Assembly (NCBI GenBank): GCA_903893215.1
Contig: CAITLJ010000021.1
Coordinates: 62,001-126,000 of the forward strand
Origin: an uncultured Ferrovum sp.
GTDB lineage: Bacteria > Pseudomonadota > Gammaproteobacteria > Burkholderiales > Ferrovaceae
Direction of reading: 5' to 3'
Length of the DNA stretch: 64,000 bases
Shown here: piece after piece, positions 47,336 to 54,936 of the stretch
Layout of the letters: every line of letters starts with the position of its first letter
Numbering within the stretch: the first letter of the stretch is position 1
Notes under the pieces: generated by a model
Seen by the model: the letters and a program-made list of their open reading frames with translations, nothing else
What the model was told of the DNA's origin: nothing
Databases searched by the model: none
Program-made: the position numbers and the translations under genes

Positions 47336-48373
47336 ATGTTTAGTTTCTTCCGGTCGCGCAAGTCCTCCGCACCGCCAGCAGATGTTGCGCCTTCCTCGGC
47401 CACCACGCAGCCCGCAGGTGCCGCTGCACCGGCCATCGACCGCGCAGCACCGGCCAGCGACGGTGGCGGCTGGCTGCAGCGCCTGCGCAGCGGTCTTGCA
47501 CGCACCCGCGAGCGGCTCGGCGCAAATCTGGGCAGCCTGTTCCATCTCGGCGCCAAGGTGGACGAGGCATGGTTCGAACAACTGGAAGAGGCGCTGCTCA
47601 TGGCCGATGTCGGTGTCACCGCCACGCGTCGCCTGCTGCAGGGCCTGCGCGAGACGGCGCGCCGTGAGCAGATCAACGATGGTGCGGCCCTGCGTTCCTT
47701 GCTTTCCAGCCAACTGGCCGACCTGCTCCGTCCACTGGAGCGCACCATCGTCCTGCAGGACGCGCCACCCACCGTGGTGCTGTTCGTCGGGGTCAATGGC
47801 GCTGGCAAGACCACCAGCATTGGCAAGCTGGCCCAACATCTGCTCAACGACGGCCAGCAAGTGATGCTGGCTGCCGGCGACACCTTCCGCGCCGCCGCTG
47901 TCGAACAATTGCGCGCCTGGGGCGAGCGTAACCAGGTGCCGGTGATCAGCCAGGCGCAGGGTGACTCTGCTGCCGTGATCTTTGATGCGATCAATTCGGC
48001 GCGTGCCCGTGGCACCAGCGTGCTGCTGGCCGACACGGCCGGTCGCCTGCCTACCCAGCTCCACCTGATGGAAGAGTTGCGCAAGGTGCAACGGGTGGCA
48101 GGCAAGGCGCTGGGCGGCGCCCCGCATGAAGTGCTGCTGGTGCTGGATGCCAACACGGGACAGAACGCGCTGGCGCAGGTGCGCGCCTTTGATGATGCGC
48201 TTGGCCTGACCGGCCTGATCGTGACCAAACTGGACGGCACGGCCAAGGGTGGCATCCTGGCAGCGATTGCGGCCGAACGCCCAATCCCGGTCGTGTTCAT
48301 CGGCGTGGGCGAAAGTCTGGCCGACCTGCGCCCCTTCGTGGCGCAGGAATACGCCGAGGCACTGCTGGCATGA
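47336..48373 (+). CDS. ftsY: Signal recognition particle receptor FtsY
   Basis: A 345-residue SRP GTPase with a short, poorly acidic A domain (about 1-50), an N domain, and a G domain with VNGAGKTTSIGKLA (P-loop), AGDTFRAAAVEQLRAW, LLADTAGRLPTQLHLMEEL and VTKLDGTAKGG. It docks ribosome-SRP complexes at the inner membrane. The stop overlaps ftsE by 4 bases. Confidence 0.96.
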   Translation: MFSFFRSRKSSAPPADVAPSSATTQPAGAAAPAIDRAAPASDGGGWLQRLRSGLARTRERLGANLGSLFHLGAKVDEAWFEQLEEALLMADVGVTATRRLLQGLRETARREQINDGAALRSLLSSQLADLLRPLERTIVLQDAPPTVVLFVGVNGAGKTTSIGKLAQHLLNDGQQVMLAAGDTFRAAAVEQLRAWGERNQVPVISQAQGDSAAVIFDAINSARARGTSVLLADTAGRLPTQLHLMEELRKVQRVAGKALGGAPHEVLLVLDANTGQNALAQVRAFDDALGLTGLIVTKLDGTAKGGILAAIAAERPIPVVFIGVGESLADLRPFVAQEYAEALLA

Positions 48374-49041
48374 TCGAAATCGCGGGGGTGACCCGCCGCT
48401 ATCCCGACGGCCGCGAAGCCCTCCGCGGCATTGACCTGCACGTGGAAGCTGGCGAGATGCTGTTTCTGGGTGGCCCGTCCGGCGCCGGCAAGAGCACCCT
48501 GCTGCGCGTGATCGCCGGGATCGACCGTCCCACCCGGGGTCGGGTCAGCCTGAACGGTCAGGAACTCACCCGCCTCGGTGCGTCTGCGCGCGAAGCCCTG
48601 CGCCGCAATATCGGTCTGGTGTTTCAGGACCATCGGCTGCTCAACGACCGCTCGGTGCGCGAGAACGCGGCGCTGCCGTTGCGTATCCAGGGATTGTCGG
48701 CCGCCGATGTGGAACGTCGGGTAGGCGCTGCGCTGGAACGGGTCGGGCTGGCAGCACGCGCTGCCGACTCGCCCCTTGCGCTGTCGGGTGGCGAGCGGCA
48801 GCGGCTGTGCATAGCGCGCGCGCTGGTTGGACGCCCGGCGCTGATTGTGGCTGACGAGCCGACCGGCAGTCTGGATCAGGAATACAGTCAGGCGATCCTC
48901 GCGCTGTTCCGCTCCTTCAATCTGGCAGGCGTGACGCTGATCATCGCCACCCATGACGAACGCCTTGTGCAGCAACTGGAGGGGCGACTGGTGCACATGG
49001 ACCAGGGCCGCATCCTGAGTGACGGCAGGGTGGCGCGATGA
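48370..49041 (+). CDS. ftsE: Cell division ATP-binding protein FtsE
   Basis: A 223-residue ABC ATPase: Walker A GGPSGAGKSTLLRVIAG, Q loop GLVFQDHRLL, signature LSGGERQRLCIARAL, Walker B ALIVADEPTGSLD and the His switch IIATHD. With FtsX it drives amidase activation at the septum. It overlaps ftsX by 4 bases. Confidence 0.95.
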   Translation: MIEIAGVTRRYPDGREALRGIDLHVEAGEMLFLGGPSGAGKSTLLRVIAGIDRPTRGRVSLNGQELTRLGASAREALRRNIGLVFQDHRLLNDRSVRENAALPLRIQGLSAADVERRVGAALERVGLAARAADSPLALSGGERQRLCIARALVGRPALIVADEPTGSLDQEYSQAILALFRSFNLAGVTLIIATHDERLVQQLEGRLVHMDQGRILSDGRVAR

Positions 49042-49946
49042 TGGGCAGCCTCCAGCAGCAAGGCTATGCCCTGCGTCAGGCACTGGTTCGACTGGCGCGA
49101 GCGCCGGTCGCCCATCTGTTCACCGTGCTGGTGATCAGCCTGTCGTTGGCGGTCCCGCTCGTGCTGTACCGATTGGTGAGCGACCTCGGTGCGCTGGCAA
49201 GGGCGCAGGCGGGTCCGCCCCAGCTCACCGTGTTCCTGCGCATGGACGCCAGCGAGGCCTTGATCACCAGCACACGGACGGCGCTCCAGGCACGGCCCGA
49301 CCTTGAGGCGGTCCGTTATGTCTCGCCGGACGCCGCTTTGCAGGACATCCGGCGCAGCACGCGCATGGAGGACGTGCTGGCCGGACTGGACGGCAACCCG
49401 TTGCCCGGCGCATTTGTTGTGCGACCGCGCCAGGGGGAACCGGAAGGCTTGGTGACGCTGCAGAAGGCCCTGCGCGCCCTGCCCGGCGTTGACCTGGTGC
49501 AATTCGACGCCGAATGGGCACGTCGGCTTTACGCCCTGGGCCAATTGAGCGAGCGCGGGGTGCTGATGCTGGGGGGTGTGCTGGTGGCGGGCTTGCTCAG
49601 CGTGGTGGTCAACACGCTGCGTCTGCAGATCCTGGCCGCACGCGAAGAGATCGAAGTCTGCAAGCTGATGGGGGCGAGCAATGCCTTTGTTCGGCGCCCG
49701 TTTGTCTATTTTGGGGTGCTGCAAGTGTTACTTGGCAGCCTGCTCGCCATGGGCTTGGCCGAACTGGCGCGTTGGTCGATCAATCAGGCCAGCACCGACT
49801 GGCTGGCGCCTTTGGGTGTACACCTTCAACTGCAGGCACCCGATGCACTTGAATGGGCCAGCCTGCTGGGGTGGGCGGTGATGATGGGTTGGCTGGCTTC
49901 TGCAGCCACGGTGGCCGCATTCCTGCGTCAGTTACGTTCCACCTGA
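49038..49946 (+). CDS. ftsX: Cell division protein FtsX
   Basis: A 302-residue permease-type protein with four membrane segments (about 26-46, 170-195, 220-245 and 270-292) and an extracellular domain between the first two, containing LTVFLRMDAS and VRYVSPDAALQDI. The block RLQILAAREEIEVCKLMGASNAFVRRPF is characteristic. It partners FtsE; rpoH follows, as in E. coli. Confidence 0.94.
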   Translation: MMGSLQQQGYALRQALVRLARAPVAHLFTVLVISLSLAVPLVLYRLVSDLGALARAQAGPPQLTVFLRMDASEALITSTRTALQARPDLEAVRYVSPDAALQDIRRSTRMEDVLAGLDGNPLPGAFVVRPRQGEPEGLVTLQKALRALPGVDLVQFDAEWARRLYALGQLSERGVLMLGGVLVAGLLSVVVNTLRLQILAAREEIEVCKLMGASNAFVRRPFVYFGVLQVLLGSLLAMGLAELARWSINQASTDWLAPLGVHLQLQAPDALEWASLLGWAVMMGWLASAATVAAFLRQLRST

Positions 49947-50030
49947 GGGTTTGTCTTACGAGGCGCGCGGTTCCCGGTGGGTGCGGTATTGATCACCGTT
50001 TCGGGTCGAACAAGGGAACCGGTCGCAATA

Positions 50031-50057
50031 CTGGCACTCTCATTCTTCGAGTGCTAA
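50031..50057 (+). promoter_or_regulatory. CIRCE-like HrcA operator overlapping the rpoH promoter
   Basis: CTGGCACTC, nine bases, GAGTGCTAA. The right arm matches the CIRCE consensus (TTAGCACTC-N9-GAGTGCTAA) at all nine positions, the left at seven, and the N9 spacing is exact. It lies 52 bases before the rpoH start. TAATAT at 50055-50060 can serve as the -10, with CTGGCA (50031) as -35 at 18-base spacing, so HrcA binding would block the promoter. Confidence 0.8.
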
Positions 50058-50108
50058 TATTTTGCGGATCGTCGCGGTCACTCGCCACGGATCCAGCAGG
50101 AGGTCGCA

Positions 50109-50972
<864 letters not shown>

Positions 50973-51026: not shown

Positions 51027-51623
51027 TTATTCGACCAGCAACCGTTTAAGGTCGGATGCCATTCCGGCTGGTGTGGCCTCAGGCCCATAAAGCAGTCGCG
51101 GCGCGCCGGTGCGGTCCAGCAAATACACGAAGCCGGCATGCTCAAAACTGGCTGCACTGCCTTCCTTGCGCTTGGAATACACCCGGAAGTCTTTGGCAGC
51201 CGCGGCCAGTGCCGTCTGCGTACCGGTCAGCCCGATGAAGTCCGGCCCGAACCCCGCCAGGTAAGACTTGAGCACCGCAGGGGTATCGGTATCTGCATCC
51301 ACCGTGACGAACAAAGCGCGCACCTGATCGCGCTGTGGTCCCAGCAGGGTGAGCGCGCTTTTCAGGTGTCCGAGAGTCTCCGGACAGATATCCGGACACT
51401 GCGTGAAACCAAAATAAAACAGCTGCAACTTGCCGCGAAAATCGGCCGGAGTACGCGGCTGGCCATTCTGGTCGATCAGCGCCCATTGCTGTCCGTACCC
51501 GGCCCCCTTGATATCCACGCCGAAGTACGGCGTGGATTCAGGCTGACACGCACTCAACAGCAGCGCAGCCGTCACGGCCAACAGTGGACCCCTCGGCAAG
51601 GCGCGCGCCAGCGCAGCCCACAT
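51027..51623 (-). CDS. SCO1/SenC family copper chaperone
   Basis: A 198-residue lipoprotein (lipobox LLSAC, C26) with a thioredoxin fold. The copper site is C76-x3-C80 in FTQCPDICPETLGH, plus the His in FEHAGFVYLLD. It inserts copper into the CuA centre of oxidase subunit II. The start ATG overlaps the ctaB stop by one base, so the long frame extending upstream through ctaB is not used. Confidence 0.94.
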   Translation of the reverse strand: MWAALARALPRGPLLAVTAALLLSACQPESTPYFGVDIKGAGYGQQWALIDQNGQPRTPADFRGKLQLFYFGFTQCPDICPETLGHLKSALTLLGPQRDQVRALFVTVDADTDTPAVLKSYLAGFGPDFIGLTGTQTALAAAAKDFRVYSKRKEGSAASFEHAGFVYLLDRTGAPRLLYGPEATPAGMASDLKRLLVE

Positions 51624-52519
51624 CAGATCACCTGCGGAAAGTAGTGATCCACCAACATCACGGCAAACAGAAGGGCCAGGTACCAGATCGACCAGGTGAA
51701 GGTGCGCCGGGAAATCGCGTCGGTGTAATGCTTCCAGACCTGCCATGCGTACCACACAAAAATGCCCCCCAGGATCAAGGCGCCGATCGCATACAGACCA
51801 CCCGACAGGCCGGATGCTACCGGCAACAGGCTGGCCGCCACCAGGATCAGTGTGTACAGGAACACGTGCAGACGGGTGTATTCGTCGCCATGGGTGACCG
51901 GCAACATCGGGATGCCGGCGCGCGCGTATTCTTTCTTGCGGTAAAGCGCCAGCGCCCAGAAATGTGGCGGGGTCCAGACAAAGATGATCAGGAACAGCAG
52001 CAGGGCATCGGCGGTGACTTCGCCGGTCACGGCAGCCCAGCCAAGCACCGGGGGCATGGCACCTGAGGCGCCGCCAATCACGATGTTCTGCGGGGTGGCG
52101 GGCTTGAGCAGGACGGTATAGATAATGGCGTAGCCGACAAAGGTGGCCAGGGTCAGCCACATGGTCAGTGCGTTCACCTGCGTGTAAAGCAATGCCATGC
52201 CCGTGCCACCCGTCAGCGAGGCCAGCGCCAGGACCTGGAATGAACTGATCGTGCCACGAGCGGTTCCGCGTGCGCGCGTCCGCGCCATCAGGGCATCAAT
52301 CTGCTGTTCGACCAGACAATTGATCGCAGCGGCCGCTGCGGCGACCAGAAAGATGCCGATGGTGCCGCCAACCAGCACACGCGGCGCCACCATGCCTGGC
52401 ACCGCCAGAAACATGCCAATCACTGCCGTGAAAACGATCAGCGCCACCACGCGTGGCTTGCACAGATGCAAAAATTGCAGCAGGACGCCCTCTTCAACGG
52501 GCAGAGCAGTAGATTCCAT
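51623..52519 (-). CDS. ctaB: Protoheme IX farnesyltransferase (heme O synthase)
   Basis: A 298-residue UbiA-family membrane enzyme with about nine helices. [23 protein letters not shown] and [23 protein letters not shown] (the Asp-rich prenyl-diphosphate site) are diagnostic, and [17 protein letters not shown] is a second block. It makes heme O for CtaA, the gene before it (2-base gap). Confidence 0.95.
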
Positions 52520-52521
52520 GG

Positions 52522-53547
52522 TCAGGCAGAGGCTTGATAGACAGTACGGGAGAGGGGGCGGGCGCCGGCGGGCGCCACGGGTCGGCACAGAGTGGCGGTG
52601 TTGGTGGCCACCAGCGCCAGCAACAGCAGTGCGGCGCCGCCATTATGCATTACCGCCAGAGGTAGCGGCAGTTGCCACACCACGATCGAGATGCCGATCG
52701 CCAGTTGTGCCGTCAGCGCCAGTAGCAGCAGCACGCCAAAGATGCGCAGGCCAGGCGCCCGCAGCAAGGTCAGGCCGAGCAGCAGCAGGGTGGTGCCAAC
52801 CAACGCCGCACCGATCCGGTGGGTGAAATGGATGGCGGTCAACGCCGCGTTGCTGAGCAGGCCACCGTCTGCCGTATGCCCCAGTTCACGCAGGAGATGG
52901 AAGGCGTTGCCGTAATCGGTGTCGGGCGTCAGCGTGCCGTGGCAAAGCGGAAAATCCGGACAGGCCAGCGCAGCGTAATTGGTGCTGGTCCAGGCACCCA
53001 GGGCCACCTGCATCGCCAGCAACACCAGGCCAAGCAGGGCAAAGCGGCGCACCCCGGGCGACACGGCGGGGCCGTGTACGATGTCGGTCTGGCGCAAGGC
53101 CATCACGCTGAGCAAGGCAAAGGTGGTCAGGCCACCCAGCAGGTGCAGGCTCACGATCACCGGCTTGAGCAGCAAGGTCACCGTCCACATGCCAAGCATG
53201 CCCTGAAAGATCACCACCGCCACAAGGGCGCTAGGCAGTCCCGGGATGCGGCCCGGTGCACGCTGACGCCAGGCCAATGCGCTCAGCAGCAGGATCAGGA
53301 AGCCCAGGCTGGTAGCAAAATAGCGGTGCACCATCTCCAGCCAGGCCTTGCGCGGCTCCACCGGCTTGCCAGGAAAGGCAACTTCGGCGCTGGCCTTGTC
53401 GGCGGCGGCTTCTGGCACGCCCACGTGTCCGTAGCAGCCTGGCCAGTCCGGGCAACCCAGACCGGCGTCATTCAGGCGTACATAGGCACCCAGCAGCACG
53501 ATGCCAAGGGCGAGTGCTGCGGCAAGTATCGAGAGGGTCTTGAACAT
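52522..53547 (-). CDS. ctaA: Heme A synthase
   Basis: A 341-residue membrane protein of the COX15/CtaA family with about eight helices. [35 protein letters not shown] and [12 protein letters not shown] carry the conserved Cys pairs and haem-ligating His residues; [12 protein letters not shown] provides another. It oxidises heme O to heme A for the aa3 oxidase. Confidence 0.95.
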
Positions 53548-53593
53548 CGCAAACTTCCTTTGATTCGCCGAACCGGTGTCATCCGGGCCGGAA

Positions 53594-54211
53594 TTAACCG
53601 ATCTGGGAGGCCTTCAGCAGGCGCTCCATGTCCTTCAGCACTTTTTTCAGGTCTGCATTGAGCGGATAGCGCAGCACCAGATTGCCGAGCGGGTCGACCA
53701 CCCACAGGTGTGCATGCGCATCGCCCTGTTCGGGCGTAAAAGCGGTGGCAAGGGGCCCGCCCTGCAGGTGCAGGAAATGCGTGCCGGCGTAGTCGCGGGT
53801 GGTGCCCACGGCCACATGCGCCGAGTCTTCCAGCAACAGCACGCGCTCGACGCGGGTATCGTCATGTCCCAGTGCAGCCCGCACCTGACGCATGCCGTAC
53901 AGCTTGGCCTGACAACCCTGCTCGCAGGATGACACGTCCTGCGCCACCAGCACCCATTTGCCCTTCAGGCTGTCCAGGGTGAATGGCTTGCCCTCTTCAT
54001 CCTGCAAATTGGCGGCTGGCAGCGGCGCCACCTCAAGCAGGGTGCCATAGATGTGGCCGTTGGCCGGGTGGACCAGAAAATACCAGATATAGGACAGCAC
54101 CACGGGAGAGGCAAATACCAGCAGCATCAACAGGATCTGCAGGCGCGCGGCGCGCTGCTTGCGCGGATCGGGTTGCGCCGACGTTGCGCTGGTCGGGGAT
54201 GAAGTGCTCAA
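53594..54211 (-). CDS. Membrane-anchored protein with SCO-like CxxxC motif, oxidase cluster
   Basis: A 205-residue protein with one N-terminal membrane segment (LQILLMLLVFASPVVLSYIWYFLV, about 25-48) and a periplasmic domain. That domain has LKGKWVLVAQDVSSCEQGCQAKLYGMRQVRAAL, where C-E-Q-G-C sits at the place SCO proteins carry their copper-binding CxxxC, and HLWVVDPLGNLVLRYP near the C-terminus. This gene is conserved between SURF1 and ctaA in betaproteobacteria. A redox or copper role in oxidase assembly is inferred. The TTG start at 54211 overlaps the SURF1 stop by 4 bases and has AGGA upstream. Confidence 0.75.
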   Translation of the reverse strand: MSTSSPTSATSAQPDPRKQRAARLQILLMLLVFASPVVLSYIWYFLVHPANGHIYGTLLEVAPLPAANLQDEEGKPFTLDSLKGKWVLVAQDVSSCEQGCQAKLYGMRQVRAALGHDDTRVERVLLLEDSAHVAVGTTRDYAGTHFLHLQGGPLATAFTPEQGDAHAHLWVVDPLGNLVLRYPLNADLKKVLKDMERLLKASQIG

Positions 54212-54936
54212 GATGGGCGTCCTGCCTTGCGAAAAAAATTGAAATACAGATAAAGGGCCACGGTGGTGGCGGCCAGGCTGAACCACTGAAACGCATAGCC
54301 GCGGTGCATGTCGATGCCGGCATCTGGCGTTTCAACCACGGCCAGCAGGCCCGGACTGGCCGGCTCCGCCAACAGCACCAGCGGCAGCACCTCCAGATGA
54401 TGGACCTCGGCATAGCGCGTCAGTTGCAAGTTTTGCCAAACCGGACCGCTGACCACGTTTGACGACAACTCCATGTAGCGGGTCTGCGCCGGGGCAAGGT
54501 GACCAGTGACTGCCTGCGGACCGTCGGGCACAGGGACTTCGGGCGCCCTGGGATAGGTGGAACTGCGGGCCAGAAAACCGCGATTCACCAGCACGACTCG
54601 GTGCCCGAGTTGCAGCGGTGTCAGCACGTGATAGCCGGGTACGCCATCGTGGTCGCGATTGTCGATGTAGATCTGCCCGGACGGCAGATAGGTGCCACTG
54701 GCCTGGGCGGCCCTGAAACGCAGCGTGTCCGCTGCCGACGCCAGCATTGGCTGGTCGGCAAGCGTTACAGCGGGTGCCAGCCGGCGTTGTTCCAGCGCCG
54801 CCTGCAGCAAGGTTTTTTCTTGCGCCCGGTGCACTTGCCAGCGTCCAAGCAGCAAGGTGACCACCACCACCAACAGCGCAGCCAGGGTGGGAATCAGCCC
54901 CACCCGGCGCTGGACGGACCTGACGTCAGCAGTCAT
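54208..54936 (-). CDS. SURF1 family cytochrome oxidase biogenesis protein
   Basis: A 242-residue protein with membrane segments at both ends (about 12-32 and 212-232) and a periplasmic middle domain. GRWQVHRAQEKTLLQAALEQR, YIDNRDHDGVPGYHVLTPLQL and VLVNRGFLARSSTYP are SURF1 signatures. It helps insert haem into subunit I. Confidence 0.93.
   Translation of the reverse strand: MTADVRSVQRRVGLIPTLAALLVVVVTLLLGRWQVHRAQEKTLLQAALEQRRLAPAVTLADQPMLASAADTLRFRAAQASGTYLPSGQIYIDNRDHDGVPGYHVLTPLQLGHRVVLVNRGFLARSSTYPRAPEVPVPDGPQAVTGHLAPAQTRYMELSSNVVSGPVWQNLQLTRYAEVHHLEVLPLVLLAEPASPGLLAVVETPDAGIDMHRGYAFQWFSLAATTVALYLYFNFFRKAGRPS

Follow-up and report, generated by a model that had tools for sequence, protein, structure and literature searches.

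The question raised by this locus is whether rpoH, the gene of the heat-shock sigma factor sigma32, is transcribed under the control of the repressor HrcA, and which promoters such control would reach. E. coli is the model for sigma32, and control of the sigma factor in that organism is largely post-transcriptional. In the DNA analysed here (the window, a stretch of 64,000 nucleotides from an uncultured Ferrovum sp.), a reading made from the sequence alone had proposed a CIRCE-like HrcA site on the rpoH promoter. The comparisons described below support the placing of rpoH under HrcA, as far as sequence can, and point to a sigmaE-like promoter overlapping the operator, which goes beyond that first description.

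The CIRCE site upstream of rpoH

The site, CTGGCACTCTCATTCTTCGAGTGCTAA, occupies 50031–50057 and has the form CTGGCACTC-N9-GAGTGCTAA. Relative to CIRCE in the form printed in PMC545781, TTAGCACTC-N9-GAGTGCTAA, it differs at 2 of 18 arm positions, the right arm matching at 9/9, the left arm at 7/9 and the spacer being N9. It ends 51 bases before the ATG of rpoH (50109). Arms and spacing were thus found again as the sequence-only reading had given them; of the extent it proposed, 50031–50060, the start holds, but the operator ends at 50057 and the extra TAT completes the hexamer TAATAT. The CIRCE-like site upstream of rpoH is confirmed as real. One hundred rounds of shuffling the window yielded no CIRCE match with up to three mismatches, and the base composition of the window predicts about 0.0005 matches with up to two mismatches per 64 kb, or 0.025 per 3.27 Mb. 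The whole genome (3.27 Mb) contains exactly two CIRCE sites with up to three mismatches, one before rpoH and the other before groES, and the predicted HrcA regulon therefore comprises groESL and rpoH.

The genes at 47336–50972 of the window run in the order ftsY-ftsE-ftsX-rpoH, which is also the order in E. coli. No terminator-like site was found at 49900–50200, between ftsX and rpoH, and therefore read-through from ftsX, which is possible, could bypass the operator. Past rpoH, on the minus strand (51027–54936), lie ORFs which by eye resemble SCO1, protohaem farnesyltransferase (ctaB), ctaA and SURF1, that is, cytochrome oxidase assembly. A thermosensor in the leader RNA was considered and set aside: 50066–50240, covering the leader and first codons with the palindrome outside, folds like its shuffles (z −0.51), which is weak evidence.

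Table 1. Features at the rpoH locus, with positions in the window
Feature	Positions	Strand	Basis or remark
ftsX, upstream neighbour of rpoH	49038..49946	+	TIGR00439 253 bits, just below cut-off 255
GGAACC, sigmaE-like −35	50015..50020	+	GAAC 15 or 16 bases before CIRCE in 49/73 rpoH sites
CIRCE, presumed HrcA operator	50031..50057	+	16/18 arm positions match; conserved at rpoH of relatives
CTGGCA, weak −35 candidate (4/6)	50031..50036	+	read by eye; 18 bases before TAATAT
TCTCA, sigmaE-like −10	50038..50042	+	left-arm TC and spacer bases 1–3
TGCTAATAT, extended −10, housekeeping-type	50052..50060	+	inside right arm and just beyond
AGGAGG, likely rpoH ribosome binding site	50098..50103	+	sequence
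rpoH, heat-shock sigma factor (sigma32)	50109..50972	+	TIGR02392 387.9 bits, cut-off 323.1

HrcA, GroES and RpoE in the same genome

The proposal implied an hrcA gene in the genome and a further CIRCE at groESL, and both were found. The gene matches PF01628 at 2.0e-61 and the equivalog profile TIGR00331 at 302.5 bits (cut-off 197.2); the 3,660 bases around it contain no CIRCE within five mismatches. The groES site starts 74 bases before its gene and has a single mismatch. E. coli, taken as one of 14 control genomes, gives no match to the HrcA profile.

RpoE is encoded in the same genome as well (TIGR02939 325.7 bits, cut-off 236.15). Upstream of rpoE stands GAACAA-N16-TCTTT (spacing counted by eye), possibly a weak autoregulatory promoter. 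A 213-residue ORF overlapping the end of rpoE seems, by eye, to contain RseA. The rpoE contig opens with a run of GGACA pentamers (L198, 1–60), some 280 bases before the RpoE match, where either the assembly is broken or the repeat is a variable one.

Conservation at rpoH and co-occurrence with hrcA

Searching 32 genomes of the host family with RpoH gave 28 rpoH loci, that of the window included, and CIRCE is present within two mismatches at all 28. The palindrome is thus conserved in relatives, a point on which the proposal could have failed. The other four family genomes, 57–87% complete, gave weaker RpoH matches only. hrcA was detected in 30 of the 32; completeness is 73 and 74% for the other two genomes, one of which (G088) bears CIRCE at rpoH.

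Beyond the family, the named rpoH loci comprise the best 80 of 591 relatives. CIRCE within two mismatches is found at 45 of these 80. Across the same best 80 of 591, hrcA and CIRCE at rpoH occur together in 42 genomes, hrcA alone in 5, CIRCE alone in 3 and neither in 30, where 'neither' includes a locus with 63 bases of upstream sequence (L027), and hrcA was scored as present in one genome from a match of 18 residues at the edge of a contig (L024) and in another from a weak match (L043). The site tracks hrcA (Fisher 1.5e-13, a P value which treats related genomes as independent), and 30 of the 33 named genomes lacking hrcA, from the best 80 of 591, also lack the site. Among betaproteobacterial loci in this set of the best 80 of 591, assigned from record titles and tallied by hand, 25 of 26 have CIRCE at rpoH, the exception being L027. 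CIRCE is absent from rpoH in the enteric, Vibrio and Haemophilus members of the set, whose genomes also gave no hrcA.

Of the five genomes with hrcA and no rpoH site within two mismatches, two (L059, L063) show the palindrome in altered form at the corresponding position and a third (L068) likewise by eye; a fourth, Thioploca (L061), has a second rpoH (L201) with a perfect CIRCE, and at the fifth (L054) a right-arm-like half site remains. The three genomes with CIRCE alone are metagenome-assembled, of 1.7, 2.9 and 1.8 Mb. In the L068 genome the groES site is altered as well (L205), as one repressor of changed preference would give. The L059 and L078 genomes yielded only the rpoH site and no groES site.

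Twenty genomes were scanned for sites within two mismatches: exactly two were found in 14, three in 2, one in 2 and none in 2. All 13 betaproteobacterial genomes scanned have exactly two, the second lying before groES in 12; in the thirteenth genome it stands at the end of a contig, where no GroES match was obtained.

In Xanthomonadaceae and some relatives (L059, L063, L078) the rpoH palindrome takes the form GCAGTC-N9-GACTGC or near it, and an altered or hybrid site stands before groES in a further two genomes (L205, L208). These altered forms suggest a shift in HrcA specificity. Pseudoalteromonas luteoviolacea (L043) has one CIRCE within two mismatches in its genome, at rpoH; its HrcA (L182, 708–1652) is divergent (TIGR00331 119.9 bits against a cut-off of 197.2), and the gene adjoins an ORF resembling GrpE by eye.

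Two promoter-like elements at the CIRCE site

The setting of CIRCE differs between groESL and rpoH. Of 36 groESL loci given to the scan, 7 were dropped for want of a GroES match; at the remaining 29, CIRCE mostly comes after a promoter of CTTGAAA type that has a TATA-like element, whereas at rpoH it overlaps two promoter-like elements.

The first of these is of housekeeping type. The right arm and its flank read TGCTAANNT at rpoH, an extended −10 in which TGN precedes a TATAAT-like hexamer (TGCTAATAT). Three bases past the right arm, a T stands in 71 of 73 rpoH sites (the loci with up to two CIRCE mismatches, out of 108) as against 1 of 29 groESL sites. The −35/−10 pair claimed for the site thus survives in part: the −10 is strongly conserved in relatives, but the −35 is weak, CTGGCA being the sole candidate where a near-consensus hexamer was sought at 16–18 bases, and a strict sigma70 scan of 49900–50200 returned no promoters. 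A transcript starting upstream of the site would include the palindrome, which might then act at the RNA level, forming a leader hairpin or a thermosensor, instead of serving as an operator. This appears extremely improbable, as the housekeeping start is predicted to fall beyond the site, at about 50067, and the site tracks hrcA and is common to groESL.

The second element, GGAACC-N17-TCTCA at 50015–50042, is sigmaE-like: it combines a GGAAC −35 with a TC(T/A)NA −10 at the sigmaE distance, and the −10 joins the last bases of the left arm to the first bases of the spacer. GAAC is found 15 or 16 bases before CIRCE at 49 of 73 rpoH sites, 27 of 28 in the host family, and at none of the 29 groESL sites when 12–18 bases are allowed. 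The third spacer base, which falls in this −10, is A in 45 of 49 sites with GAAC against 6 of 24 without it (outside the host family, 20/22 against 5/23). Taken alone, A at this position does not separate rpoH from groESL (15 of 33 'beta' loci, labelled by the author in part after the sites were known, versus 11 of 29). A simple sigmaE score, set together with its threshold after the motif was known, exceeds the threshold in 53 of 73 rpoH sites (28/45 outside the host family), in 0.6% of arm-preserving shuffles and in 0/29 groESL sites.

The combination was also sought as one composite pattern, GGAAC-N11/12-YTRGCACTC-N9-GAGTGCTAR-NNT, in 399 genomes of the host order, an even sample of a larger group. 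It occurs exactly in 95 of the 399 and its reverse in none, which is a cleaner test than the score, though with counts to be read in the light of the pattern being derived from the same lineages and of the 399 including 13 genomes of the host family, 11 of them matching. The 304 genomes from which it is absent in that form may carry it in a different register or with mismatches, or may lack CIRCE. rpoH was present at all 30 loci fetched from the 96 matches, with an extrapolated start 22–338 bases downstream. The third spacer base, left unspecified by the pattern, is A in 91 of the 96 matches, and at bases 4–9 no base exceeds 44 of 96.

HrcA might repress rpoH at CIRCE with only the housekeeping promoter being of importance, the sigmaE-like box being a remnant or unused. 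We consider this unlikely. It would accommodate the 20 of 73 CIRCE loci whose score does not reach the sigmaE threshold (loci of Rubrivivax, Polynucleobacter, Herbaspirillum and Methylocaldum are among these), and the presence of the extended −10 in all but two of the 73; the −35 of the window, GGAACCG, also differs from GGAACTT in the last two of seven bases. It does not account for the preference for A at a spacer position which the composite left free, nor for the way in which the box slides against CIRCE with its spacing retained, being moved by 4 bases at two loci (L030, L031) and lying 31–33 bases upstream at three others (L014, L015, L019). Furthermore, the rpoH (fam) promoter region of Bordetella bronchiseptica is transcribed in vitro by SigE (PMC3490749).

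Were the conserved DNA chiefly promoter, HrcA binding could be weak or without regulatory effect and sigma32 would be controlled post-transcriptionally as in E. coli. That the window site is weaker than most, with two mismatches in its left arm, and that three genomes keep CIRCE without a detected hrcA would fit this explanation, to which we give little credence. Both full arms are retained, though the promoter elements need just parts of them, and the site is missing from 30 of the 33 hrcA-less genomes counted above. Several enteric rpoH regions, found with a related regular expression, conversely retain a sigmaE-like box without CIRCE, in keeping with E. coli rpoHP3.

A model for control of rpoH

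With the site, hrcA, rpoE, the CIRCE at groES, conservation in relatives and co-occurrence with hrcA all observed, it is highly probable that an HrcA operator lies in the rpoH promoter region and gates both the housekeeping and the sigmaE promoters, with feedback through GroEL. In other bacteria GroEL keeps HrcA active, and titration of GroEL by unfolded protein inactivates HrcA. At normal temperature, HrcA bound to 50031–50057 would cover the housekeeping promoter at TGCTAATAT and the sigmaE promoter GGAACC-N17-TCTCA, the latter with a predicted start at about 50048, repressing starts from both. Unfolded protein would occupy GroEL, HrcA would become inactive and rpoH could be transcribed by either sigma factor. 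The resulting sigma32 would transcribe groESL, whose own CIRCE would be cleared simultaneously, and new GroEL would restore HrcA and shut both groESL and rpoH. Envelope stress acting through sigmaE would be expected to raise rpoH fully only while HrcA is off. Confidence in this model, and in the stronger reading below, is lowered somewhat by the 20 of 73 loci and 304 of 399 genomes in which the sigmaE part is not seen in this exact form.

We lean, with less assurance, towards a stronger reading in which 46 bases serve as a repressor operator while also forming two promoters, each for its own sigma factor, making HrcA a single AND-NOT gate on the inputs to sigma32, in an arrangement common to many relatives. 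The sigmaE −10 would then sit in the left arm and spacer and the housekeeping −10 in the right arm. Selection would have placed part of a promoter in a spacer which, in this textbook operator, is regarded as free. On this reading many relatives, and some gammaproteobacteria, would control transcription of sigma32 by a GroEL-sensing repressor, which would also gate the envelope-stress input. HrcA would in that case reach groESL by two routes, one direct and the other by way of sigma32.

Comparison with known systems

The open-licence literature, in the part searched, holds no recognised account of CIRCE at rpoH in betaproteobacteria, and none was found there of a CIRCE–sigmaE promoter fusion at rpoH. 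To judge from its title, a work of Permina and Gelfand from 2003 probably treats HrcA and CIRCE in betaproteobacteria, and it may already list rpoH. PMC5343134 mentions neither HrcA nor rpoH. Table 7 of PMC3135505 gives 0 HrcA for Neisseria gonorrhoeae and N. meningitidis and 1 for Chromobacterium violaceum and Laribacter hongkongensis; CIRCE at rpoH would accordingly be expected in the latter pair and not in the former.

In Geobacter sulfurreducens, CIRCE of the form TTAGCACTC-N9-GAGTGCTAA has been predicted at −51 of rpoH, with further predicted sites at groESL and hrcA-grpE-dnaKJ (Rodionov et al. 2004, PMC545781, in the sections available). The likeness to the window is a predicted site upstream of rpoH; the difference is that the same sections describe no promoter overlap. 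A Geobacteraceae locus (L083) lacks the GGAAC box and has the flank TGG, and therefore neither promoter element is seen there. E. coli rpoHP3 and B. bronchiseptica fam share with the window an RpoE-type promoter upstream of rpoH, but HrcA is mentioned nowhere in PMC3490749 and the enteric boxes stand without CIRCE. CIRCE at rpoH is thus on record as a prediction for Geobacter and sigmaE at rpoH for Bordetella, whilst the fusion of the two appears to be new, as judged from the literature covered.

The classical CIRCE at groESL has its palindrome, N9 spacing and presumed repressor in common with the site described here. It differs in following a promoter-like stretch, whereas the operator at rpoH itself contains −10 elements.
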